A DNA stretch of 34,418 bases, taken from Gemmatimonadota bacterium. GTDB taxonomy: Bacteria > Latescibacterota > UBA2968. The stretch lies in the NCBI GenBank assembly GCA_026706845.1, contig JAPOXY010000047.1, positions 1 through 34,418 on the forward strand, given 5' to 3'. The notes beneath the pieces are model-generated. The model had not been told where the DNA came from, did not search any database, and saw nothing but the letters and a program-made list of their open reading frames with translations. Positions 792 to 29,258 of the stretch are shown in pieces; the first letter of the stretch is position 1; each line of letters begins with the position of its first letter. The translations under genes were made by a program, and so were the position numbers.

Positions 792-816
792 ACGCCTGCT
801 TAAAGCATGCAGGCGT
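792..816. repeat. perfect 8-bp inverted repeat (hairpin), probably a dispersed intergenic repeat
   Basis: ACGCCTGC at 792-799 is matched by its exact complement GCAGGCGT at 809-816 around a 9-base loop. No U-tract follows, so a terminator is unlikely. It overlaps the upstream GTG that would extend the next gene, which argues that the GTG is not the true start. The shape recalls the short GC-rich palindromes scattered between genes in many environmental bacterial genomes. A leader hairpin that affects translation is the alternative. Confidence 0.55.
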
Positions 817-886
817 GACGGACACGAGATCGATATGGACAGCCTTGCACAATTCTCTGTCCAATGACCAACCAAAGGACCTCGTC

Positions 887-3800
887 ATGCCCAGCATACC
901 CTGGCGGCCAAGAGTCATCCTTCCCGGCCGCAGTGTTCGCCTGCCCGTGCAAGCCACCGACGACAACATCACCCTCACATCCGACCACTTTGAAACCATC
1001 GCCACCCGATGGTGCGAGCGGGACACCGCGCGCTACTACTACCTGCGATCCCCCCAAAAGCAAGGCGACTACACCCTCATCGCAACGCACAACGGCAACA
1101 CCGCGGAAGCCACCATCCAGGTCCGCACCCTGGACAACCTGCGCCAGCCCCACACCTACAACGGCGCGCAATGGCCCCGCCGATGGCCTCTGGGCCAGAA
1201 CTACCACCCCACCAAAACCCGACAAACGCTACAAAACGACCCCAAATCAGAACGAATCAACGAAGAAACCCTCGCCTGGTGGTCATCTCAACCCGACCAT
1301 GTCCTCTGGTCGCAACTACCGCCCGCAGAACTACCCAAAGCGCACTTTGCCAACTGCCATCAGGGCTGTCCAAACTGCGGAACCGCCATCTTCAAATACA
1401 GCGGCTTCTATCCCTGGGAACGCAACCATCTCCCCTGCGATTTCAAATCGCAATGCCCCAACTGCGCCTCTATCTATCCCAGCAACAACCTCACAAAAGA
1501 AGACTATACCTCGGGCGAGTATGCAGACGACGGATACGGCTACTTCGACGCAGAAGGCCACATCTACCTCTTTGCCGCCACCTATCACCGCGACCAGTGC
1601 CGCGCCTATCACGCTGGCATCAACACACTCACAGACAGCCTCCGCACAGGCGACCTCGACGAAGAACGCACCCGTAAACTCGGCCTCATGCTCCTGCGCT
1701 ACGCCACAGAAGAACTCTACCTCGCCTCGGTCCCCCAGTTCCGCTATGGACCCTCAAAAAGCGTAGAAGAACCCTGGGAATGGGGACAACCGGACTGGGC
1801 AGAAGAAACCGACCCCGTTGCCGCCCTGAGCAGAAAAGGCACCATCCGCTACAGCATCGACACCCCCTACCTCATCGAAAGCCTCGCCCTCGCCTACGAC
1901 ACAGCCTGGCCCCTCCTGAAAGAAGACACACAACTCGTCGAACGCGCACGGGCATTCGGCCTATCTCTGCAAAGCCCCGAAGACACCTGCCTACTCATCG
2001 AAGAAATGCTCGCCGCCCTCCTGCAGGTCACCCTGGATCGAGGTGCAGGCAGCAATCTACCGCGCGAAAGCCAGGGCGTCCTCATCCTCTTGCGCTGCCT
2101 GGACCGCGCCGACGCCCGGGACGTCATGGACTGGGTCTATGACGAAGGTCCCGACACCCTGCGCGTCTTCACCACCAATGACATCCTGCCCGACGGCACA
2201 CCCCAGGAAGCCACAGGCGGATACAATGCCATCCACAGCGACGGCCTCTTCGACCTGGAATACCACCTCCGCAGCCTCCGCACTCAGCAACCCGACGCCT
2301 ATCCGGAAACCCTGTACCCCTCGCTCTTCAAAGATCCGCGAGGCGCACGCGTCCCCCGGGCACTGTGCGAAATCACCATGATCGGAAAATCCTACTTCCA
2401 ATTCGGTGACGGCTCTGCCCCCGGTTCTGCCGGCATCCAGACAAAAGACTCAATCCGTCTGGAAAACGACCTCTATCACGCGCCCATGAACGCCAGCGTA
2501 CTGGAACGCGCCACAACCTTCACCAACGACCCACACATCGCAGAAATCCAATCCACCGTACAGAACAAACAGCACCGCGCACTCGGACCAACCATCCTCG
2601 ACAGCGTCGGCATTGCCATCTTGCGCACACCCGAAGCCCCCGAACGAGCCGCCGTGGGCATAGCGTATGGCGACACCATGCACCATCGCCATCGAGACCT
2701 CCTGGACGTCCAGCTCTTCGCCTTTGACCGTCCCTTTCTCACAGACCTCGGCTATCCACAATCCTGGGCAAGCACATCGCCCTGGGAAGCCCATTGGGCA
2801 ACTCACAACACCGTCTGGGCAGACCTGCCGCCCGGCGAATCCACCGGCTCGGGCCGTGGCCGCCTCGTCCGCGCCCTCTTCACCGACGGCATCCAGGTCC
2901 TGGATATCGAAGCCCACCGTTGGACACTCGACCCATCGGACGGATGGCGCAAAGTCGATATCACCTTCCGCCGCCTCATCGCCCTGATCGAAACCGATGG
3001 CGAAGGCATCGCCCTCCTCGACCTCTCGCGCATCACGGGCGGCGCAGAACACTGGCGCACCTGTCGCGGTCTGGAAGGCATATTCCAAACCGACAACGCC
3101 GACCTCAAACCCCAACCCGGCACAGTCGCCGGTCCCCACATCCAGCGCACCCAAACAGACAACCTGCCCCACCCGGACCACACCGCCCTCGCGTACATGG
3201 ACAACATAACAACCGCTCAGGCACCACCGACCTTCCGGGGCACCTGGCAATCGCAAATCGAACCAGCCGTACATCTCGACCTCCATCAACTCAACATTTC
3301 TCCAAACACCCAGGTCCTCAACACCCGTGCGGCACAGGCCATGGGAACGCCCGAAGAATCCAACTACCTCTACCACCCCGTAATCTGGCGTCGCACACCC
3401 GACAACGACACCACCTGCATCGACCTCGTCTTCGAACCCCGACTCGGCAACCCCACCCTCGCCAGCACCACAGCCATACCATCGAACAACCCCACAGCCT
3501 CGGGCATCCACCTCACCACCGCAAAAGGCAAACAAATCGCCCTCTATTGGGCACCCAATGCTGGCCCGAATGACAAAACCCAATTCGAAAACGGCACCGT
3601 CCTCACAGGTGCCCTCGCAGTCGTCGCAAACGGTCAAATCTCAACCATGGGAGCAACCGCCTTTCAAAACGCCGAAACAACCCTCATAAATCCCCACGCA
3701 CAACAAACTGGCCGAATCATCGCCCTCAACCGGGACACCTGCACCATCGACATCGAAGGCCTGCAAGACATCGCCGCGGGCGACCGCATCACCATCAACC

Positions 3801-4186
3801 CGGACGGCCGCGCACACAGCTACCGCATCGAAGCCGCCGAACAACTCGGCACCCACAGCCACCGCCTCACCCTGGACGTCACCTCAATCCTGGGACGCGC
3901 AAAAATCATCGCCATCGAAGACAACAAAATCGACCTCGGCTTTCACATCATGGCAAAATCCGGCAACCTCCACGGCACGCGCCTACAAACAGAAACCAGC
4001 GACAACTGGGCGGTCATAGAAAACGCCCACAATTCGAGCACCTGGCCCCCCGGAAAAATACGCACCACCATCTACCTTAGCCCGAACAATAACAAACTCC
4101 AGGACCTATCCCCCGGCACCTGGGTACAGGCCGTCGATTACGTAATTGGCGACACGATCCTCTTTGAACCCCTGTGCAGGGGATAG
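887..4186 (+). CDS. heparinase II/III-like protein (predicted polysaccharide lyase)
   Basis: This 1099-residue protein resembles the heparinase II/III superfamily, which cleaves uronic-acid-containing polysaccharides by beta-elimination. An (alpha/alpha) toroid is expected in the middle. The beta-sandwich part shows the family-like HHRHRD cluster near residue 599 followed by 'THNTVW' near 640. Two CPNC pairs at about 161-164 and 190-193 look like a small zinc ribbon before the toroid. The ATG at 887 was chosen because AAAGGA lies eight bases upstream; the in-frame GTG at 815 sits inside a hairpin and has no such site. There is no signal peptide, which is unusual for a lyase acting on polymers and suggests oligosaccharide substrates in the cytoplasm. 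It heads the co-directional array. The exact substrate cannot be read from sequence. Confidence 0.7.
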   Translation: MPSIPWRPRVILPGRSVRLPVQATDDNITLTSDHFETIATRWCERDTARYYYLRSPQKQGDYTLIATHNGNTAEATIQVRTLDNLRQPHTYNGAQWPRRWPLGQNYHPTKTRQTLQNDPKSERINEETLAWWSSQPDHVLWSQLPPAELPKAHFANCHQGCPNCGTAIFKYSGFYPWERNHLPCDFKSQCPNCASIYPSNNLTKEDYTSGEYADDGYGYFDAEGHIYLFAATYHRDQCRAYHAGINTLTDSLRTGDLDEERTRKLGLMLLRYATEELYLASVPQFRYGPSKSVEEPWEWGQPDWAEETDPVAALSRKGTIRYSIDTPYLIESLALAYDTAWPLLKEDTQLVERARAFGLSLQSPEDTCLLIEEMLAALLQVTLDRGAGSNLPRESQGVLILLRCLDRADARDVMDWVYDEGPDTLRVFTTNDILPDGTPQEATGGYNAIHSDGLFDLEYHLRSLRTQQPDAYPETLYPSLFKDPRGARVPRALCEITMIGKSYFQFGDGSAPGSAGIQTKDSIRLENDLYHAPMNASVLERATTFTNDPHIAEIQSTVQNKQHRALGPTILDSVGIAILRTPEAPERAAVGIAYGDTMHHRHRDLLDVQLFAFDRPFLTDLGYPQSWASTSPWEAHWATHNTVWADLPPGESTGSGRGRLVRALFTDGIQVLDIEAHRWTLDPSDGWRKVDITFRRLIALIETDGEGIALLDLSRITGGAEHWRTCRGLEGIFQTDNADLKPQPGTVAGPHIQRTQTDNLPHPDHTALAYMDNITTAQAPPTFRGTWQSQIEPAVHLDLHQLNISPNTQVLNTRAAQAMGTPEESNYLYHPVIWRRTPDNDTTCIDLVFEPRLGNPTLASTTAIPSNNPTASGIHLTTAKGKQIALYWAPNAGPNDKTQFENGTVLTGALAVVANGQISTMGATAFQNAETTLINPHAQQTGRIIALNRDTCTIDIEGLQDIAAGDRITINPDGRAHSYRIEAAEQLGTHSHRLTLDVTSILGRAKIIAIEDNKIDLGFHIMAKSGNLHGTRLQTETSDNWAVIENAHNSSTWPPGKIRTTIYLSPNNNKLQDLSPGTWVQAVDYVIGDTILFEPLCRG

Positions 4187-4242
4187 TGGACATTCTTCAG
4201 CCATTTTTTATATTGATAACCCATAAAAAGAAAGGAATCGCA

Positions 4243-4980
4243 ATGGCCGTTGAAACACTACCCCTAACAGAAAATCAGATTGACCAATACCATCGAGACG
4301 GTTTCTTGCTCGCCTCGGGATTGATTCCCGAGGCTATTGCACGCACGGGTGAAGCCACAATGTGGGAAGTCATGGGCATGGACCCTGACGATTCGGGAAC
4401 CTGGAACAACTATTCAGACGAAGCGATTGCATCCACGCTACAGGCCGGATTCAAACCCCGATCGAAATTATTTCAATACTTCGACAATCAACACCCCGAC
4501 CTCCTCGCCTGTTACACACCCGAAATGATGGCAGCAATGGCGCAATTAACCGGCGAAAGTGTAGGTCTCTTTCATCCACCAACCGGCACACTCATACAAA
4601 ACATCTTTCCCTCAGATGAAGAATGGGCGTGGCAAGGGGCGCATTTTGACGGTGGCGTAAAAGCCAAAATGCACAAAACACTCCCCGGCCCATTCATCAT
4701 CAACTCCATCATATATCTCAACGACATAGAAAAACACGGCGGAGGAACAGTTGCGTGGCCCGGATCTCACAAACCCATTCGCGTACTGGCAGAATCCGAC
4801 CCCGAGAAATACGAATACATGTGGCAACTAAAACAAGACCTGCACACCGTCGATATCGGCGGCCCCGTAGAACTGGAGCCAAAATGCGGCGACATACTAT
4901 TCTTCGCTCACTTCTGCGTCCACGCCGCCACCAATAACGTGCGCGACATGCCCCGCCTGGCACTGCGAAGTCGGTGGTAA
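4243..4980 (+). CDS. phytanoyl-CoA dioxygenase family (PhyH) Fe(II)/2OG oxygenase
   Basis: This 245-residue protein has the cupin-fold PhyH layout. The iron-binding HFD motif falls at residues 134-136, a 'PGSHK' turn near 173, the distal histidine in 'CVHAATNN' at 227, and an arginine for 2-oxoglutarate near 238. Such enzymes hydroxylate an unactivated carbon using O2 and 2-oxoglutarate; the substrate here is unknown. The ATG at 4243 is preferred over an in-frame start at 4174, which overlaps the upstream gene, because AAAGGA precedes it at proper distance. The chain stops almost immediately after the final core strand, so its C-terminus is short for the family. It lies 56 bases after the heparinase-like gene and 13 before the membrane protein. 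Confidence 0.85.
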   Translation: MAVETLPLTENQIDQYHRDGFLLASGLIPEAIARTGEATMWEVMGMDPDDSGTWNNYSDEAIASTLQAGFKPRSKLFQYFDNQHPDLLACYTPEMMAAMAQLTGESVGLFHPPTGTLIQNIFPSDEEWAWQGAHFDGGVKAKMHKTLPGPFIINSIIYLNDIEKHGGGTVAWPGSHKPIRVLAESDPEKYEYMWQLKQDLHTVDIGGPVELEPKCGDILFFAHFCVHAATNNVRDMPRLALRSRW

Positions 4981-6976: not shown

Positions 6977-7924
6977 ATGGCAACAGTTGACACCAGAACA
7001 CATGGCTTAACCGCGGAAGAGCGCGAGGCTTACGCAAAAGACGGATTCTTCATCCGACCAAAAGCCTTCGATACGTATGAGATCGACGCACTGCGCGACA
7101 GAATTGAAGACCTCGTAGAACTCATCGAGACCTCCGACGTATTGCCAGAAAAACAGAAACAAGCAATCCTGAAACGCAACGTCGGAACCGAAGCGACTTC
7201 TGGGCCTGCATCGTTAAACAGCATAACGCGACTTCACAGGTTCAGCGCATTAGTGCGATCCCACATCCGCGACCCGAGGCGACTGGATGCAGTCACACAG
7301 ATCGTAGGATCGGATCTATTCTGTCCCAACGACCTGTACTTCTTCAAACCTCCGGGCACCGGGCGGCCCATTGCGTGGCACCAGGACTCCTGGTACTTCC
7401 GAAACACGTACGTCAGCAGCATAGGCGACGCCATAGAGCAAGCCTCCATAGGAACCTGGCTGGCGCTGGATGAGGCAGATGAAGAAAACGGATGCTTGTG
7501 GGTAATCCCCGGCAGCCACCGCCTGGGCGTAGTAGATCACAGCCAGGTCGAAAGCGATGAGTACTTATTGCAAAAAAGATTGACCGTATCCGACGAAATG
7601 GAAGAACGAGCAATACCAGTAGAAGTGCCAAAAGGCGCCCTCGTATTTTTCAACAACGCCCTGTTTCACCGCAGCACACCCAACAGATCAGACAGGTTTC
7701 GGCGGGCCTATATCGTACACTATATGAAAGCGACCATTCAGCACACCAACACCAGGAACAGGCAAAGGATAGACGAAGAGACGAAACACTGGGGCACAAC
7801 TGAGATGTACATCTGCGGAGTACCCGGATCCATACAAACAACACCCGAAAAGGAAAGCATGAACTGGGACAGTGCCCTGGGACGAACATTGACAGAAGAC
7901 GACATTCGGATAAAAAGGAAATAA
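6977..7924 (+). CDS. PhyH-family Fe(II)/2OG oxygenase
   Basis: The 315-residue protein is a clear PhyH member. HQD at residues 135-137 and the distal histidine at 231 in 'LFHRSTPN' form the facial triad, and an arginine at about 243 should hold 2-oxoglutarate. The 'NGCLWVIPGSH' segment near 171-181 is the usual family signature. The N-terminal helix 'EREAYAKDGFF' is also typical. GAGGAG lies just upstream of the ATG. One base separates its stop from the following sulfatase start, so the two are likely co-translated and may act on the same molecule. The substrate is unknown. Confidence 0.88.
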   Translation: MATVDTRTHGLTAEEREAYAKDGFFIRPKAFDTYEIDALRDRIEDLVELIETSDVLPEKQKQAILKRNVGTEATSGPASLNSITRLHRFSALVRSHIRDPRRLDAVTQIVGSDLFCPNDLYFFKPPGTGRPIAWHQDSWYFRNTYVSSIGDAIEQASIGTWLALDEADEENGCLWVIPGSHRLGVVDHSQVESDEYLLQKRLTVSDEMEERAIPVEVPKGALVFFNNALFHRSTPNRSDRFRRAYIVHYMKATIQHTNTRNRQRIDEETKHWGTTEMYICGVPGSIQTTPEKESMNWDSALGRTLTEDDIRIKRK

Positions 7925-9392: not shown

Positions 9393-11377
9393 AAAACGCC
9401 CAACTCCGCTACAGACAGGTACACCTGGACTTTCACACCTCTGAACACTGCCCGAATGTCGGTGGCAAATTTGACGAAGACCAGTTCATCGGCGCCCTAA
9501 AAAAGGGACATGTCAATTCCATAACCATCTTTGCACAATGCCATCACGGCTGGTGTTATTACCCCACAAAAACGGACATGGAACATCCCAACCTGCAAAC
9601 CGACCTCGTCGGACGCATGCTCGCCGCAGCAAAAAAAGCCGACATCAACATGCCCGTCTATATCACCGTACAATGGCAGGAAAAAGCTGCCCGCGAACAC
9701 CCCGAATGGCGCGTCAGGCGACCCGACGGGGGCTATGTGGGACGGCCAACAATGCACCCCCATACCCCCCTGCCACACGGCGGATGGTATCGCCTGTGTT
9801 GCAACACGCCCTATCTGGATGCGAGTGTCCTGCCCGTATTGACAGAAGTAATGGACATGTACAATCCTTCTGGCATCTTCCTGGACATCACCGGAGAAGA
9901 AATTTGCACCTGTGATTGGTGTATCGCCAGCATGCACGAAAAAGGACTCGACCCCGATAACGCTGGAGATCGGATTATCCACTCACAAGCTGTGTACAAA
10001 GACTATCTGTCCAAAACCACGGACATCATCTGGAGCCGAAATCCCGACGCCACAATTTATCACAACGGAAGCGACAAAAAGGGACGCCACGACCTCTACC
10101 CCTACTGGTCGCACCACGAAATCGAATCCCTGCCAACCGGCATGTGGGGATACAACCACTTCCCGACAAACGCGCGCTACTTCACAAACCTACCCGACTG
10201 CAACGCAATCGCACAAACGGGCAAATTCCATCGCATGTGGGGCGAATTTGGCGGCTTCAAAAATCCAGTCGCATTGGAATACGAAGTAGGACAAATCATC
10301 TCATTAAATTGCCGCTGTATGGTAGGCGACCAACTCCATCCCGAAGGTGAAATGGACGAAGAAACCTATCGCATCATAGGCGAAGCGTACAAACGCGTTG
10401 AAGAACGCGAACCCTGGCTGGAAGGTGCCGAACACGTAGTAGATGTGGCAATCCTCGCACCCTCGGGCGTACACAAAGACAGAGATCTGGAAGACAGCGA
10501 AGTCGGCGCCGGACTCATGCTCATGGAAAACCACATCCCATTCTTAATGCTCGACGAAACAATGGACCTATCCCCCTACCAGCTATTAATTCTACCAGAC
10601 AGCGTGCGCGTGGATAACGCACTAAAAGCAAAAATCGACACATTTCTGGCGGGCGGCGGAAAATTATTATCGTCCGGCGAAAGCGGCCTGGACCCTGCAG
10701 GAAAAGGTTTTGCGTATGACATCGGCGCAGAATATACCGGACCCTCGCCCAATGATATAGAATACGTAGTCGTCGGAGACGCCATCGCCACAAATTTGGT
10801 ACGCACCCCATTCCTCGTCTATGAATCCGGCGTAACCACAAAAGTGACAGACGGCGAAATACTCGCAGCCGCGTGGAAACCGTATTTTAACCGCACGTAC
10901 GGAAAATTCTGCTCCCACCGAAACACCCCTTATGAAGGCGACGCGGGTTGGCCCTCCGTCATCCGCAAAGGCAACATCATCCACATCGCCCAACCCATCT
11001 TCAGAGTCTATGACGACCAGGGCATGCAATTGCACCGCGACCTGGTAAAAAACTGCATCGACCTGCTCTACGACGACCCCTTATTGCAGGTCTCCCTGCC
11101 ATCGTGTGGCCGAGTAAATCTAACGCGCCAACCCCAGGAAGGAAACCGGCTAATCCTGCATCTCATGTACGCCAACCCCATCAAACGGGGCGATACAAAT
11201 GTAATTGAAGACATTATCCCATTGTACGACATCGCAGTCTCCCTTAAAGCGGACCGCGACATATCTCGCGTATATCTCGCCCCCGAAAACGAGGACATTG
11301 AATTTGCAGTAGCGAACGGGCGCGTGTCATTTACCGTGCCCAAGGTCGAAATGAATCAGATTGTAGTAATTGAATAA
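9389..11377 (+). CDS. putative glycoside hydrolase, GHL6-like TIM barrel with trimerisation-type C-terminus
   Basis: The 662-residue protein opens with 'RQVHLDFHTS', which I associate with the GHL6 group of putative glycoside hydrolases, related in fold to GH29 and GH42 enzymes. 'GIFLD' at 162-166 ends a barrel strand with a candidate catalytic Asp166, followed by a CxCxxC cluster at 173-178. Residues from about 350 look like the alpha/beta domain seen in beta-galactosidase trimerisation regions, followed by a small beta-rich tail. No signal peptide is seen. Its start codon overlaps the stop of the preceding sulfatase (ATGA), implying translational coupling, so it probably removes a sugar unit after desulfation. 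The specific linkage cannot be stated. Confidence 0.65.
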   Translation: MKNAQLRYRQVHLDFHTSEHCPNVGGKFDEDQFIGALKKGHVNSITIFAQCHHGWCYYPTKTDMEHPNLQTDLVGRMLAAAKKADINMPVYITVQWQEKAAREHPEWRVRRPDGGYVGRPTMHPHTPLPHGGWYRLCCNTPYLDASVLPVLTEVMDMYNPSGIFLDITGEEICTCDWCIASMHEKGLDPDNAGDRIIHSQAVYKDYLSKTTDIIWSRNPDATIYHNGSDKKGRHDLYPYWSHHEIESLPTGMWGYNHFPTNARYFTNLPDCNAIAQTGKFHRMWGEFGGFKNPVALEYEVGQIISLNCRCMVGDQLHPEGEMDEETYRIIGEAYKRVEEREPWLEGAEHVVDVAILAPSGVHKDRDLEDSEVGAGLMLMENHIPFLMLDETMDLSPYQLLILPDSVRVDNALKAKIDTFLAGGGKLLSSGESGLDPAGKGFAYDIGAEYTGPSPNDIEYVVVGDAIATNLVRTPFLVYESGVTTKVTDGEILAAAWKPYFNRTYGKFCSHRNTPYEGDAGWPSVIRKGNIIHIAQPIFRVYDDQGMQLHRDLVKNCIDLLYDDPLLQVSLPSCGRVNLTRQPQEGNRLILHLMYANPIKRGDTNVIEDIIPLYDIAVSLKADRDISRVYLAPENEDIEFAVANGRVSFTVPKVEMNQIVVIE

Positions 11378-11399: not shown

Positions 11400-12311
11400 A
11401 TGCCAGAAACAAAAAAAATCGTCCGGTCGGAACCCTTTGTAATCAACAAAAACATGAGCAGCCCGATGGCGATATCCGACAGAGACCTCACGCCAAAAAA
11501 TGCGGATGGTCTCCCCGTAGTCTTGCCAACGGAAAAACAAAAATACGACTTTGATCGCAATGGGTGGCTCTTAATCCCCGGCGTACTCTCAAAAGACGAA
11601 TGCGACGAAATGCGGACCTTTGCCGAGCGACTGGCCAAAGACCCCGAAAGCATACCCGAACACGAACGCTGTCCACTTGGCGGACCATTGCAAAAATTGG
11701 CCGACCACCCCGTTATCGTCGGATTCATGAACGAATTCGTGGCATATCCTCCCCTCGCCAACGACGAGCGATACGGATTCAGACTGGAAACATCCCACCT
11801 GTTCTACCGCGATGCTGAAACACCCGGAAGATTTAGTCCACATAATGGCAATGGCCTGTTTCGCATGCCCTGGGACTCCCACTTTTACCGGTGCATCCCC
11901 GGCAAAGCATGGAGCGGACTAACGCGCATCGTATGGGAATTTAACCCCGTCAAAAAAGGGCAGGGCAGCACATTATTTGTACCGGGCAGCCACAAAGCCG
12001 CTTATCCAGCACCCGAAACCGTCCGCGACCCCGAATCAACCATGTGGGAAACATATAGCTGCCCACCCGGATCGCTGTTATTCTTCACCGAAGCAATCAC
12101 GCACAGCGCACATCCCTGGACCAACACCGAAAACAACCGCCTCGCCGTATTCAACCTCTACAATATTGTCGCGAGCCGATGGCATTCGTGGTTACCCCCT
12201 GAAAAACTCATCGAATCCATGCCCCCCTTAAGACAAACGCTCTTCAGCGAACCGTACAACGAAAAAGTGGATACATTCTTCCCGCGCACAACGGCGTATA
12301 TGGACGGGTAA
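11400..12311 (+). CDS. PhyH-family oxygenase with HxG in place of HxD (paralogue A)
   Basis: This 303-residue protein shows the PhyH framework: 'VPGSHKA' near 194-200, distal 'THSAHPW' with His235, and Arg247 in 'NNRLAV'. The position where HxD is expected reads H148-N-G150 in 'PHNGNG', so the carboxylate ligand appears to be missing. In non-haem iron halogenases such as SyrB2 and WelO5 the same Asp is Ala or Gly, leaving room for halide. That parallel is only suggestive, because alignment could move the ligand to Asp159. The ATG at 11400 follows AAAGGAG at 11387-11393; an in-frame start at 11370 overlaps the previous gene. The next gene is a close tandem paralogue. Confidence 0.75.
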   Translation: MPETKKIVRSEPFVINKNMSSPMAISDRDLTPKNADGLPVVLPTEKQKYDFDRNGWLLIPGVLSKDECDEMRTFAERLAKDPESIPEHERCPLGGPLQKLADHPVIVGFMNEFVAYPPLANDERYGFRLETSHLFYRDAETPGRFSPHNGNGLFRMPWDSHFYRCIPGKAWSGLTRIVWEFNPVKKGQGSTLFVPGSHKAAYPAPETVRDPESTMWETYSCPPGSLLFFTEAITHSAHPWTNTENNRLAVFNLYNIVASRWHSWLPPEKLIESMPPLRQTLFSEPYNEKVDTFFPRTTAYMDG

Positions 12312-12319
12312 GCAAGGTC

Positions 12320-12381
12320 GGGAAAAGGATTTCCCTCCTACACGACCATGTAACACACTGTTGAAGCGGCATCCCTGCCGC
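12320..12381. repeat. paired-hairpin intergenic repeat
   Basis: Between the two paralogous oxygenase genes lie two hairpins: GGGAAA (12320-12325) with TTTCCC (12330-12335), and GCGGCA (12366-12371) with TGCCGC (12376-12381). CCTACA follows directly after the first. The gap at 21721-21788 has the same order: hairpin, CTACA, about 25-30 bases, hairpin. I read both as members of a REP-like dispersed family. A transcript-stabilising or attenuating role inside the operon is possible. A terminator is unlikely because no T-run follows. Confidence 0.5.
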
Positions 12382-12418
12382 GACCACGACCAACTTTTTG
12401 ATAATTGGAGACCGACCC

Positions 12419-13318
12419 ATGACCGACAATGGAACAGTCACACCTTATATCATCGACAAAAATCTGGGCAGCCCAATGGACGACTACTCAGATGTATTGC
12501 CAAAGAAAAATGGCGACGGATTAGACATCATCGAACCGACCGCAGAGCAAAAGTACCGGTTTGACAAAGACGGGTGGCTCTTAGTCCCCGGCGTATTGAG
12601 CGAACAGGACATCAAGGAAATGCGGGAATATTGTATTCAACTGCACTTCGATCCCCAATCGCTCCCCGAACACGAACGCACCCCGCTGGCAGGTCCCACA
12701 CAGAAATTGATAGATCATCCTCTGGTAGTCGGCATGATGAATGAATTCATGGCCAATCCCCGCTTATCAAGCCCCAACTGTTACGGATTCAGTCTGGCCG
12801 CCAATGGACTCTGGTATAGAACCGCACCCAGCCGACGAAATGAAGGCAAAAGAGAAGCCCGTCATTTTACCCCACACAATGGCAATGGCCTATATCGCCT
12901 GCCCGGCGACGCGCACTATTACAACGCCTTCCCCGGCAAAGCCAACAGCGCGCATACCCGCGTGGTTTGGGAATTGAACCCCGTCAAACACAAACAGGGC
13001 GGCACACTCCTCGTAACGGGCAGCCACAAAGCTGTGTACACCGCACCCGACGAAATACAAGACCCCGACTCCAGCATCTGGACGACCTATTCATGTCCGG
13101 CAGGCTCGGTCCTATTCTTTGCAGAAGCAACAACACACAGCGCACATCCGTGGACCAATGAAGAAAACGACCGCATTGCCATCGCCAACCTCTACAACTT
13201 CGTAGATGGCGGTCACGCCAGATTGCTGAGGCCCGACCCCCGCATCTTGAACGCCATGCCCCCGATTCGCCAGACCCTGTTCAGAGAGCGATTTGCCGGT
13301 CAAAATGTCGTCAGGTAA
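12419..13318 (+). CDS. PhyH-family oxygenase with HxG in place of HxD (paralogue B)
   Basis: The 299-residue protein is a tandem paralogue of the gene starting at 11400. They share the 'EQKYRFDKDGWLLVPGVLS' opening pattern, the 'LPEHER' segment, 'PHNGNGL', 'GSHKA' and 'THSAHPWTN'. The iron motif again reads H153-N-G155, with distal His240 and Arg252 retained. Conservation of the Gly in both copies makes a sequencing error unlikely and points to a genuine subfamily. The ATG at 12419 has GGAG eight bases upstream. This copy has an extra loop near residues 136-148 rich in Arg, Glu and Lys. It ends eight bases before a sulfatase start. Confidence 0.75.
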   Translation: MTDNGTVTPYIIDKNLGSPMDDYSDVLPKKNGDGLDIIEPTAEQKYRFDKDGWLLVPGVLSEQDIKEMREYCIQLHFDPQSLPEHERTPLAGPTQKLIDHPLVVGMMNEFMANPRLSSPNCYGFSLAANGLWYRTAPSRRNEGKREARHFTPHNGNGLYRLPGDAHYYNAFPGKANSAHTRVVWELNPVKHKQGGTLLVTGSHKAVYTAPDEIQDPDSSIWTTYSCPAGSVLFFAEATTHSAHPWTNEENDRIAIANLYNFVDGGHARLLRPDPRILNAMPPIRQTLFRERFAGQNVVR

Positions 13319-15762: not shown

Positions 15763-16563
15763 ATGACCACAGACTGCCCCACAACCCCTGAAGATATCGC
15801 GCAATATCAAAAAAGGGGATTCATCAGCTATCCCAACTTCTTCACGCCCGAAGACCTCTGGGAACTCGCAGACGCACTCGACCACGCCGTAGCAATCAAC
15901 CGCGCCAGAATCAAAGGCGCAGAAAACGCGGGACGAGGCAGACCCGAATACGAACTCGTATTTAACCAAATGGTCAACCTCTGGACCGACTATGCAGGCG
16001 CGCGAAAAATCGCCCTGAACAAACGCCTCGCAGAATCCGCCCGCCGACTATCACAAGCCAAACAAATCCGCATCTATCACGACCACGCACTCATAAAACC
16101 ACCCGGCGTCAAAAGCCGGGAAACCAACTGGCACCAGGACTTCCCGTACTGGTCTGGTATGGACCGCCCGGGCGCACTCTCCGCCTGGATCGCAATCGAT
16201 GATGTCTATATCGAAAACGGCTGCATGCACTTCGTCCCCGGAAGCCACAAATTCGGCAAACAAGAAAGCGTGAGCCTGACCACTCAGGGCGCAAGCATCG
16301 TCCAAAAAATGAAAGAACGCGGACACAAAGTCGCCGAACCCGAAACCATAGAACTGCCAGCTGGCGGCGTCACCTTCCACCACGGATGCAACTTCCACTA
16401 TGCGGGACCCAACCTCAGCGACAAACCCCGCCGCGCATTCGCCATCATCTACATACCCGACTACGTCCTCTTCACCGGCAAAAACGACGCAGCGGGCGCG
16501 CAAGACGAAATGGAAATCGGCAAACCCTGGAACCACCCCCTGCATCCTGTAATCGCCGGATAA
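15763..16563 (+). CDS. PhyH-family Fe(II)/2OG oxygenase
   Basis: The 266-residue protein is a complete PhyH enzyme. HQD is at 124-126, 'NGCMHFVPGSHK' at about 152-163, the distal His212 in 'FHYAGPN', and Arg224 for co-substrate binding. It differs from its oxygenase neighbours by a charged N-terminal half and a Trp/His-rich tail. GGAGG seven bases before the ATG gives a strong ribosome site. The next oxygenase begins 11 bases after its stop. The two are not close paralogues, which suggests two different oxidation steps rather than gene dosage. Confidence 0.88.
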   Translation: MTTDCPTTPEDIAQYQKRGFISYPNFFTPEDLWELADALDHAVAINRARIKGAENAGRGRPEYELVFNQMVNLWTDYAGARKIALNKRLAESARRLSQAKQIRIYHDHALIKPPGVKSRETNWHQDFPYWSGMDRPGALSAWIAIDDVYIENGCMHFVPGSHKFGKQESVSLTTQGASIVQKMKERGHKVAEPETIELPAGGVTFHHGCNFHYAGPNLSDKPRRAFAIIYIPDYVLFTGKNDAAGAQDEMEIGKPWNHPLHPVIAG

Positions 16564-16574
16564 GGAGATCGAAA

Positions 16575-17537
16575 ATGTTGACCCCTGAACAATGTGAATC
16601 ATATCAGCGCAACGGCTATCTCTTAGTCCCCGACCTCTTCTCAAAAGAGCAATTGGCACCCGCGCTCGAAGTCGCAGAACAAAATGCCTACGGCAAATCT
16701 CACGAAGCCTTCAACGCCGAAATAGATGCTCATCCCGAAATCGCAGAAACACTTATCAGACCAAAAGGCCGCCGTAGCTTTGGCGGACCCCGAGCGGAAT
16801 TTCACGACATTCCAACGGGAATTGACGCCATTGACCGCACCCTTGAACACGAACCATTTTTAGACGCCCTAACCCAACTCTTAGACACACCCGACATGCA
16901 CTACCACCACGGCTTTGTCTATGCCCGTAGCGGACGCCTGGACCGGGGAACCCCTAAAGAACCCTGGCAGGGCTTCCACATCGACTGGGCAAAACCCCTG
17001 CTACCCCCGCATCCGGAATGGCAACGCTACGGCCATATCCAGGCCTGGGTTTATCTGACCGACAACGACGCAGACTGCGCCCCGGTCCGCGTATTGCCCG
17101 GCGCACACAGCAAAATGAACAAACTCATCCGCGAGCCACTCGGCACAGAACACGCATCTTATCGCTTTGACGACATCCGCAAACTCCCTTACAAATTCGA
17201 ACCCGTCACCGCCACGGGAAAAACCGGAACCGTACTCTTTTACAGCTCACACACGCCCCATTCAGCCCAGGCATTCACCAACCCCAGAAAACAACGCGCC
17301 GTCCTCTTCTACGCAGTGGGCCGCAGAGACACCAGCACCTGGACACTCACGGAAAAACGAGACATACAAGAACGCAGACGCCTGCGCCCCTTCCTGACAA
17401 AAACCACCGCAAGAGTCCGCAGCCTCTTTGGCTGGCCCAACCCCGGCGACGACTTTTACACGCCAGAAACGCTTAACCTCATCAAAAACGCCTATCCAGA
17501 AATGGACCTCAGTCCATACAAGGAATCTCGCCTATGA
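16575..17537 (+). CDS. PhyH-family Fe(II)/2OG oxygenase
   Basis: The 320-residue protein has HID at 135-137, a '[11 protein letters not shown]' turn near 172-182, a distal His in 'HTPHSAQAF' (His229 most likely) and Arg241. The C-terminal 70 residues extend beyond the core and are basic. The start at 16575 follows AAGGAG; a longer in-frame reading at 16386 runs back through the previous gene and is rejected. Its TGA overlaps the ATG of the following sulfatase, so the oxygenase and the sulfatase are almost certainly co-translated. This is one of the clearest oxygenase-sulfatase pairings in the window. Confidence 0.87.
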
Positions 17538-27097: not shown

Positions 27098-28264
27098 TCA
27101 CGACACAGTCTGGAAACGCTCCCCCGCCTCGCCAGCCGCCGCAGCTGGCCGCTCCAGCTCACTGCGCCAACCGACCACCTCGCCAGCTTTGATGCGCTTG
27201 ATATCAAAACCCGGATACCGGTCCTCGAGCGTATCCCCGAGTTTCGTTCTCTCGGCCCAGCGATCCCACGCCGTCTTCATCCACTCGTGTGGCAATGCTT
27301 CTCGCACAGCGGGATCGAGTTGCCATGCATGCCGCACATCGCTCACAGATGGCTCCTCTTCAGATGGTCCCGACCACTTCGACCAACCAATTGACAACGT
27401 ATTGCGCTCGCGATCGGGAACCGTGTGCCCCGTATGGATCGTCGTCCCATTGCGGATAAGCGCTTCCCCGGCCTTGAGCCGAATCGCCACCTGCCCCGGC
27501 AATGGATCTTCGCCATTCCAACTCGGCGTATGCGGCACCCCCTGCTCCTTCATCGCCTTTGGCAAAAGCACATCGTGCTCAAACGGCGTACGCCACCGAC
27601 TGTGACTCCCCGGCACAAGCTCGTGACACTCATCGTCCGCCAATGCCAAAAACATACTCACGCCATTCCGCTCTTTAAGAGACTTCGCATTATTTGCGCG
27701 GATCTCTTTCCAGCGTATCCTCTCGACCTCCTCGGAATACGCCTCTGGATCACTACCCCGCTCATCCCGCTGTGCAAAATAGCGCTCCCCCGTGCCCCAC
27801 CACGTCACATCCCGGTGCCAGCTCAGCTTATTCTCTTTCTGCCGGGGATTGCACCACAGCAGCAAACCACCCAGCACCGTATCTTCTGGCTCCAGCCCGT
27901 CACACCACGAATGAACAAAACTCAGAAAATCTGGCGAACCGTGGAACTCGGCAAAACACGGCTCCCCAAAAGCCGGATGGATAAGCCCCCGAATCGCCCA
28001 CGGTTCATCATTGCCCGTGCGGTGTACATAGCCCTTCGAACAATCGATCTCGTCGTACCCATTCTCTGGCGCGCACGCCTCGGTAACGCGGCGCCCCGCC
28101 TCTCGGAGGACGGGAATCCAGGGATTATCGGCAAAATCGTTAATAATGACAAAACCGTGCTCCTCCAGATGCGCCAATCGCTCTGGCGTAGCCCCGGGCG
28201 CCGAAAGCTCAGGCTTGAAATCGGCAAAAGCCGCAGCGCGATAAACTGATTGAGAACTGGACAT
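27098..28264 (-). CDS. PhyH-like Fe(II)/2OG oxygenase, larger variant
   Basis: At 388 residues this is the largest oxygenase here. The iron motif is HRD at 150-152, the turn 'ELVPGSHSRWR' lies near 215-225, the distal His is at 277 or 280 in 'TTIHTGHT', and Arg287 follows in 'RERNTLSIGW'. A long charged insertion (about 160-200) separates HRD from the next strand and could shape the substrate pocket. Two ATGs are possible; the second, at 28264, is preferred because AAAGGA is six bases upstream, whereas it directly abuts the first at 28270. It is transcribed alone, away from the oxygenase gene at 28479, from its own promoter. Confidence 0.85.
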   Translation of the reverse strand: MSSSQSVYRAAAFADFKPELSAPGATPERLAHLEEHGFVIINDFADNPWIPVLREAGRRVTEACAPENGYDEIDCSKGYVHRTGNDEPWAIRGLIHPAFGEPCFAEFHGSPDFLSFVHSWCDGLEPEDTVLGGLLLWCNPRQKENKLSWHRDVTWWGTGERYFAQRDERGSDPEAYSEEVERIRWKEIRANNAKSLKERNGVSMFLALADDECHELVPGSHSRWRTPFEHDVLLPKAMKEQGVPHTPSWNGEDPLPGQVAIRLKAGEALIRNGTTIHTGHTVPDRERNTLSIGWSKWSGPSEEEPSVSDVRHAWQLDPAVREALPHEWMKTAWDRWAERTKLGDTLEDRYPGFDIKRIKAGEVVGWRSELERPAAAAGEAGERFQTVS

Positions 28265-28350
28265 CTTCATTCCTTTCGCCCCAGGCCATATTATCTCAGC
28301 ACTGAGGTCATCGTAAGGGTGATAAATCTGCCTTCCCCACGCCCCGTGAA

Positions 28351-28379
28351 ATTATGGCATGAAACAAAAAATTTATCAA
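28351..28379 (-). promoter_or_regulatory. sigma70-type promoter for the minus-strand oxygenase
   Basis: On the minus strand TTGATA (28379-28374) and CATAAT (28356-28351) are exactly 17 bases apart, matching consensus at five of six positions for each box. Transcription would start near 28344, leaving about 80 bases of leader before the start codon at 28264. This is the best promoter match I found in the window. Confidence 0.6.
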
Positions 28380-28426
28380 GCGTTTTGCTATTCGCAAGAA
28401 GTAAAAATGTTGCTTTTTTTAAAAAC

Positions 28427-28435
28427 TGGTATAAT
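28427..28435 (+). promoter_or_regulatory. extended -10 promoter for the plus-strand oxygenase
   Basis: TGGTATAAT gives a perfect TATAAT preceded by the extended TG at the right spacing. The sequence 17 bases upstream has no good -35, which is common for extended -10 promoters. A start near 28442 gives a leader of about 37 bases before the ATG at 28479. It lies about 50 bases from the opposing promoter, so the two could share a regulator. Confidence 0.55.
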
Positions 28436-28478
28436 TTTGGACGAGATAAAATTAAAATGCGAACACGAGGAGATCGCA

Positions 28479-29258
28479 ATGGAACTAACCGAAAGCCAAA
28501 AGCGCTTCTTTTACGAAGAAGGCTACCTCAAAGTCTCGGGCGCTGTGCCCCGCGCGATGGTAGATGCCGCGCGGCAGGCGATCAATGCCGAAATAGGCAA
28601 AGGAAATACCAACCCATTTCCCGAAATCAACGCCACACCAGTCATTACGGACCTGTTCAACGAAACACCCGCCTTCTCTCTCCTCGAATCCGCATTGGGA
28701 GAAGGCAATTTGCAGCGCAGTCAGACGGGAAGTATCAAACTCAATTTCCCGCGCCCACCGGGCAGCCTTCCAAAAGATACTTTAACGGAAAAAATTGGAT
28801 GGGGCAGAAGTGGCGGACATCTGGACGGCATAAAAGCCGTAGGTGACCGGTTGCGCGGATTGCGCGAAGACGGAACTTATAACCGGAATTTTACATCTTT
28901 CGCCGTCGTATATCTCGACGATGTCCCCGTTCCCAACGGCGGCAACTTTACCGTATGGCCCAAATCGCATCACTTCTTTGAAAACTACTTCAAAGAACAC
29001 GGACATCAGATCCTGGACGACCACATGCCCCATGTCGAACTACCCGAAGGTCCAGTATTTGTAACAGGCGAAGCGGGAGACGTAATCTTTGCCCATCACG
29101 CCATGGTACACACTGGCTGCCCCAACACCTCGCCAGACATTCGATACGCCGTAATCTTCAGGACCAAACACACACAAATCGATGAAATTGGACTTGATGC
29201 CTTCACCGATATATGGCGCGAGTGGGATGGTGTGCGCGAGACTGTCGGCGCAGTATAA
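28479..29258 (+). CDS. PhyH-family Fe(II)/2OG oxygenase
   Basis: The 259-residue protein has HLD at 114-116 in 'GGHLDG', '[14 protein letters not shown]' near 158-171, distal His211 in 'MVHTGCPN', and Arg222. The ATG at 28479 follows GAGGAG; an in-frame reading from 28359 crosses the promoter and is rejected. It opens a short plus-strand group with a dienelactone hydrolase and a TPP-dependent enzyme, ending at the hairpin at 31844-31888. This second small operon lies outside the sulfatase array but shares its oxygenase theme. Confidence 0.87.

Follow-up and report, generated by a model that had tools for sequence, protein, structure and literature searches.

Iron sites of 2OG enzymes

The iron site of human AspH is of the type HXG...H, with Asp721 located exactly four residues before H725 and hydrogen-bonded to a water molecule that occupies the usual carboxylate site (PMC13168262). 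Activity of the D721A variant is substantially lower (PMC13168262). AspH is a hydroxylase for which no halogenation is seen, probably in part because the tight binding of this water makes it hard for halide to enter the site (PMC13168262). For SyrB2, the iron ligands are H116 and H235 (PMC2767507). An HxG or HxA motif in a 2OG enzyme is often read as the sign of a halogenase, but glycine alone does not imply halogenation, because P4H carrying an Asp-to-Gly or Asp-to-Ala change is not a halogenase (PMC2767507) and FIH carrying Asp-to-Gly retains some hydroxylase activity (PMC10947486). In the proteins described here the HxG motif is paired with a conserved acid, an arrangement that resembles AspH and not SyrB2 or CytC3. 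PhyH genes occur at very high copy number in Poribacteria and are mostly of unknown function, according to the portion of the Kamke 2014 account considered here, which mentions no iron-ligand variants among poribacterial PhyH proteins (PMC3909097).

The window analysed in this study is a 34,418-nucleotide stretch of DNA containing eight PhyH genes. Two of these encode the adjacent HxG proteins A and B, and the other six have HxD. The features referred to below are as follows.

11400..12311, + strand: PhyH protein A, 303 aa (H148-N-G150, E231-x3-H235, R247)
11841..11849, + strand: A codons H148-N149-G150, the HxD position (placed by HMM alignments and hhalign)
12090..12104, + strand: A codons E231 to H235, the acid at distal His minus 4 and the distal iron His
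12138..12140, + strand: A codon R247, the 2OG Arg (placed by HMM alignments and the 52-sequence alignment)
12419..13318, + strand: PhyH protein B, 299 aa (H153-N-G155, E236-x3-H240, R252)
12875..12883, + strand: B codons H153-N-G155 (placed by HMM alignments)
13124..13138, + strand: B codons E236 to H240, the acid at distal His minus 4 and the distal iron His
13172..13174, + strand: B codon R252, the 2OG Arg (placed by alignment and sequence)
4174-4980, + strand: further PhyH-type ORF, HxD
6977-7924, + strand: further PhyH-type ORF, HxD
15763-16563, + strand: further PhyH-type ORF, HxD
16545-17537, + strand: further PhyH-type ORF, HxD
28359-29258, + strand: further PhyH-type ORF, HxD
27098-28270, - strand: further PhyH-type ORF, HRD (recognised only by the PhyH profile built in this analysis)

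The HNG motif and the HxD position

ORF A extends from an ATG at 11400 to a stop at 12311, with a possible alternative upstream TTG at 11370, and ORF B runs from an ATG at 12419 to a stop at 13318. The two proteins lie next to each other on the same strand and are 54% identical. Both exceed the 22-bit gathering cut-off of the Pfam PhyH family (PF05721), with scores of 50 and 42 bits for the pair. By profile, A and B are therefore members of the PhyH family; the canonical HxD...H triad of PF05721 does not hold, since HNG stands in place of HxD while the distal His is retained. The original prediction had drawn attention to this substitution and to the retention of the distal His and the 2OG Arg. 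Numbering from the ATG reproduces its assignments of H148/G150 in A and H153/G155 in B; the distal-His/2OG-Arg pairs are H235/R247 (A) and H240/R252 (B), and the PHNGNG motif corresponds to residues 147–152 of A. The 2OG-binding Arg, located beyond the distal His, is invariant.

Several alignments place the HNG motif at the iron site. When a profile of 52 A/B-type proteins is set against one of 20 HxD PhyH proteins by hhalign, H148 falls on the HxD His, G150 on the Asp and H235 on the distal His. HMMs seeded from A and from a canonical PhyH protein of the window give concordant placements of HNG on HxD, with the canonical-seeded HMM misplacing about nine relatives (neither A nor B) by aligning a downstream Asp instead. 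The H-R-D motif of AndA, a solved enzyme, likewise aligns with H148/G150 of A. Within the 52-sequence alignment H148, H235 and R247 are invariant and G150 is nearly so, indicating that the motif is not a chance occurrence. From the alignments, PHNGNG of both proteins occupies the HxD position. The AlphaFold model of A has a mean pLDDT of 85.8, with H148 as a bridge residue.

Two other candidates for site residues were considered. H161-x-Y163 was suspected of being the true HxD site owing to its canonical spacing to the next strand, and was dropped because H161 falls within an insert that HxD PhyH proteins lack and is not conserved across the wider clade. D159 of A and D164 of B, which the original prediction had put forward as possible replacement ligands, were rejected. 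The residue is Asn in a 69%-identical relative, so D159 is not a required ligand; it is missing in other relatives, and it falls within a low-confidence segment of the AlphaFold model. The conserved candidate is instead Glu231 in A and Glu236 in B, a residue that the prediction had not named.

An acid four residues before the distal histidine

For 150 usable PhyH proteins of this genome, we recorded the residues at H+2 and at distal His minus 4, after four clearly misaligned residue calls had been corrected by hand. By strict count, Glu or Asp is found exactly at distal His minus 4 in 24/30 proteins with no acid at H+2 and in 6/120 HxD/E proteins, figures that are not statistically independent because they represent essentially one large clade and one independent case (L082). 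An aligned-column count, made after the pattern had been seen and with the strict value left as it was, finds Glu or Asp before the distal His in 29/30 of the proteins that lack an acid at H+2. The exception, L103 (HQH), has neither acid; conversely, five HxD proteins outside the HxG clade also carry an acid at minus 4. When the non-HxD clade is aligned together with L082, the Glu/Asp column is filled in every non-HxD member, and some of these contain a one-residue insertion after it.

A tree of this genome's PhyH proteins gathers the non-HxD proteins into a single clade (SH-aLRT 94); L138 is among its 29 rows. The expectation that A and B belong to a wider HGG-type PhyH subfamily is thus upheld, with a single clade accounting for 29/150 PhyH proteins. 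L082, which is outside the main clade, lacks the Asp of HxD and carries an Asp at minus 4 instead, whereas HxD is retained in its sister L075, with Ser at minus 4. The tree contains only three to four independent pairs, too few for a formal test of the association by independent contrasts.

L138 (G000:C171, where G000 is this genome), inside the HxG clade, contains HAD together with the conserved Glu (FTEALTH), an apparent regain of the HxD Asp.

A non-acid residue at H+2 is likewise paired with an acid at minus 4 in loci from five other genomes (a Poribacteria genome and four relatives), where 58/62 rows with a non-acid residue at H+2 have the acid, in a sample that is not neutral since its loci were picked with the clade profile. 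The four exceptions are half-domains in L273 and L274, which have lost the first His as well, the second domain of L277 (Ala) and one L222 protein (HSH). In sister subfamilies H+2 has become variable, with Ser, Ala, Asn and other residues, while the acid at minus 4 is kept.

That the acid is found almost exclusively at either H+2 or minus 4 would fit a reading in which E231/E236 is itself an iron ligand, forming a 2-His-1-Glu site from the turn that precedes the strand of the distal His. The independent case of L082 favours this arrangement, as does the AlphaFold model of A, which puts E231 in a three-residue turn between strands 225–230 and 234–237. The AspH residue with the same spacing is, however, a second-sphere residue and not a ligand (PMC13168262), and either Glu or Asp, as well as a one-residue insertion, is tolerated at this point in the clade. 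We regard direct ligation as a rather unlikely sub-case of the explanation preferred below. Also doubtful is its extension to the whole clade, in which a relocated Glu/Asp iron carboxylate would have freed H+2 and left the site open to bulky sugar-like substrates. A relocated 2-His-1-carboxylate topology of this kind was not noted in the 2OG-oxygenase literature examined.

Comparison with solved and characterized enzymes

HygX, the hygromycin B orthoester oxygenase (PDB 4xc9, 4xca, 4xcb, 4zpi), is the closest solved relative of A. It is the top fold match (E 3e-13; TM-scores of 0.57 and 0.69 when normalised by query and by target, respectively) and the top solved sequence in a family-profile search (E 1e-21); in fold and profile alike, A resembles the HygX-like orthosomycin oxygenases. 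HygX contains NEALMH, with Glu at distal His minus 4, and an LHGG stretch, and its substrate is a sugar antibiotic; sequence identity is only about 21%. The LHGG stretch is level with HNG in the MAFFT alignment and lies eight residues upstream in the HMMER alignment. Variation in the metal coordination of HygX is reportedly described in the paper on this enzyme.

A and B share with AspH an HxG...H site having an acid at distal His minus 4, which is E231-x3-H235 in A and E236-x3-H240 in B (PMC13168262, PMC10947486). The acid is Asp in AspH and Glu in A and B, and the AspH substrate is a protein. No AspH chain is present among the listed PDB sequence matches of A or its family, or among the top 50 fold matches of A. 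Because the families differ, the likeness appears to be convergent and confined to the site. With the canonical PhyH proteins EctD, PHYHD1 and PHYH, A and B have in common the PF05721 domain, the distal His, the 2OG Arg and a PGSHK-type motif; they differ in having HxG for HxD, the acid at distal His minus 4 and an extra loop after H148.

The original prediction had raised the possibility of halogenase-like chemistry, in which the space left by Gly150/Gly155 would be taken up by a halide and the radical formed on the substrate would rebound with the halogen. The two-His HxG motif does resemble that of halogenases, and a small residue (Ala or Gly) at H+2, a halogenase trait, is present in A (G150) and B (G155). 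SyrB2 and CytC3 (TIGR01762) share with A and B a PhyH-type fold and a first His followed by a small H+2 residue (HxA). The setting, which we infer to be marine and host-associated, would also provide abundant halide. Against this reading, neither A nor B matches the TIGR01762 chlorinating-enzyme model (cut-off 226 bits) at E up to 10, which leaves both outside that family model, and the position of the conserved Glu is occupied by Ser in SyrB2 and CytC3. In AspH, the water held by the equivalent acid probably hinders halide binding and halogenation is not seen (PMC13168262), and the P4H Asp-to-Gly variant is no halogenase (PMC2767507). The drift of H+2 to Ser, Ala, Asn and other residues beside a constant acid further argues against a pocket kept small for halide. 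Halogenation by A and B is therefore very improbable. More generally, HxG proteins may be divisible into likely oxygenases and likely halogenases by a simple rule, according to whether or not the minus 4 position holds an acid.

The best TIGR01762 matches in this genome are L024/L213 (G000:C122) and L026/L214 (G000:C100), which score 94 and 67 bits, below the cut-off. Both have HQD despite their scores with the chlorinating model and are probably hydroxylase relatives of SyrB2.

Conservation and proposed function of the pair

The A/B pair is under strong purifying selection, with dN/dS of 0.04–0.09 among orthologues at about 93% DNA identity, as had been anticipated from the retention of both copies. 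The A-then-B order is kept in the same genus, and the unit is found in related genomes and in a Poribacteria genome. It occurs in different neighbourhoods (G008, G012, G028, G013/L035, a second G002 locus and L037). Named close relatives belong to MAGs of Latescibacterota or Latescibacteria and to one of Gemmatimonadota, and a 62% relative is from a Poribacteria MAG. Taken together, the low dN/dS, the conserved order and the differing neighbourhoods indicate that A–B is a selected unit and not part of one fixed operon.

Loss of the HxD Asp might alternatively mean loss of catalysis, with A and B being pseudoenzymes or binding proteins, perhaps one partner activating the other. Heterodimeric 2OG oxygenases, TlxIJ for example, may work by partner activation of this kind, and a TlxIJ heterodimer structure is among the fold matches; the tandem paralogues do stay together, and the first His has clearly been lost in some double-domain relatives. 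Both His residues, the 2OG Arg and the acid are nonetheless retained in A, B and their relatives, and the dN/dS values also speak against this alternative, which we judge to be improbable.

We consider it likely that A and B are paired Fe(II)/2OG oxygenases of an HxG PhyH clade, with a two-His site supported by an acid, and that they oxygenate probably sugar-like substrates. The sequences show the residues themselves, their alignment with HxD, the exchange of acids and the conservation of the pair; the geometry of the site, the choice between water and direct ligation, the reaction, the substrate and the partnership are inferred as follows. Iron would be held by H148 and H235 in A, or H153 and H240 in B, with 2OG anchored by R247 or R252. 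E231/E236, four residues before the distal His, would serve in place of the lost HxD aspartate, most likely by hydrogen-bonding a water molecule in the carboxylate site by analogy with Asp721 of AspH, and less likely through direct ligation of iron by its side chain. In both cases the expected intermediate is the usual Fe(IV)=O species, and the substrate would be hydroxylated, oxidatively demethylated or cyclised without halogenation. A sugar, or a compound derived from one, is the probable substrate, with A and B probably working as partners or catalysing successive steps.

Across genomes, the neighbours of the pair include genes for a sulfatase, an aldo-keto reductase, GH43, GH127, GFO/IDH and MR_MLE as well as unrelated genes. 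These neighbours are a weak guide to substrate, because the neighbourhoods differ and sugar-related genes are common throughout these genomes. In the window, the segment 7926-27030 contains four sulfatases, an arylsulfotransferase-like protein, GHL6, an alpha-L-fucosidase and GH32 in one run around the pair, a probable sulfated-sugar utilisation cluster in this genus.

PhyH expansion and additional observations

With no fewer than 154 PhyH matches in its 5.46 Mb, this genome resembles those of the Poribacteria in the Kamke 2014 account (PMC3909097). The HxG-type class makes up about a fifth of its unusually large PhyH set. The Poribacteria genome G060 is very rich as well: at E up to 0.001 the HxG-clade profile finds 91 matches in it, a count that is not exclusive to the clade since the profile reaches HxD proteins too.

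L273, L274 and L277, and also the long ORFs L146, L147 and L167, encode double-PhyH proteins of about 500–600 aa in which the first iron His is lost in the N-terminal domain and kept in the C-terminal domain. From their sequences, these are probable fusions of a pseudo-domain to an active domain. A heparinase II/III-like ORF occupies a single frame at 815-4186 of the window, whereas in the related genome G007 (L209:2275-3822) it is matched by two pieces that overlap, which suggests that the G007 ORF is frameshifted or split.
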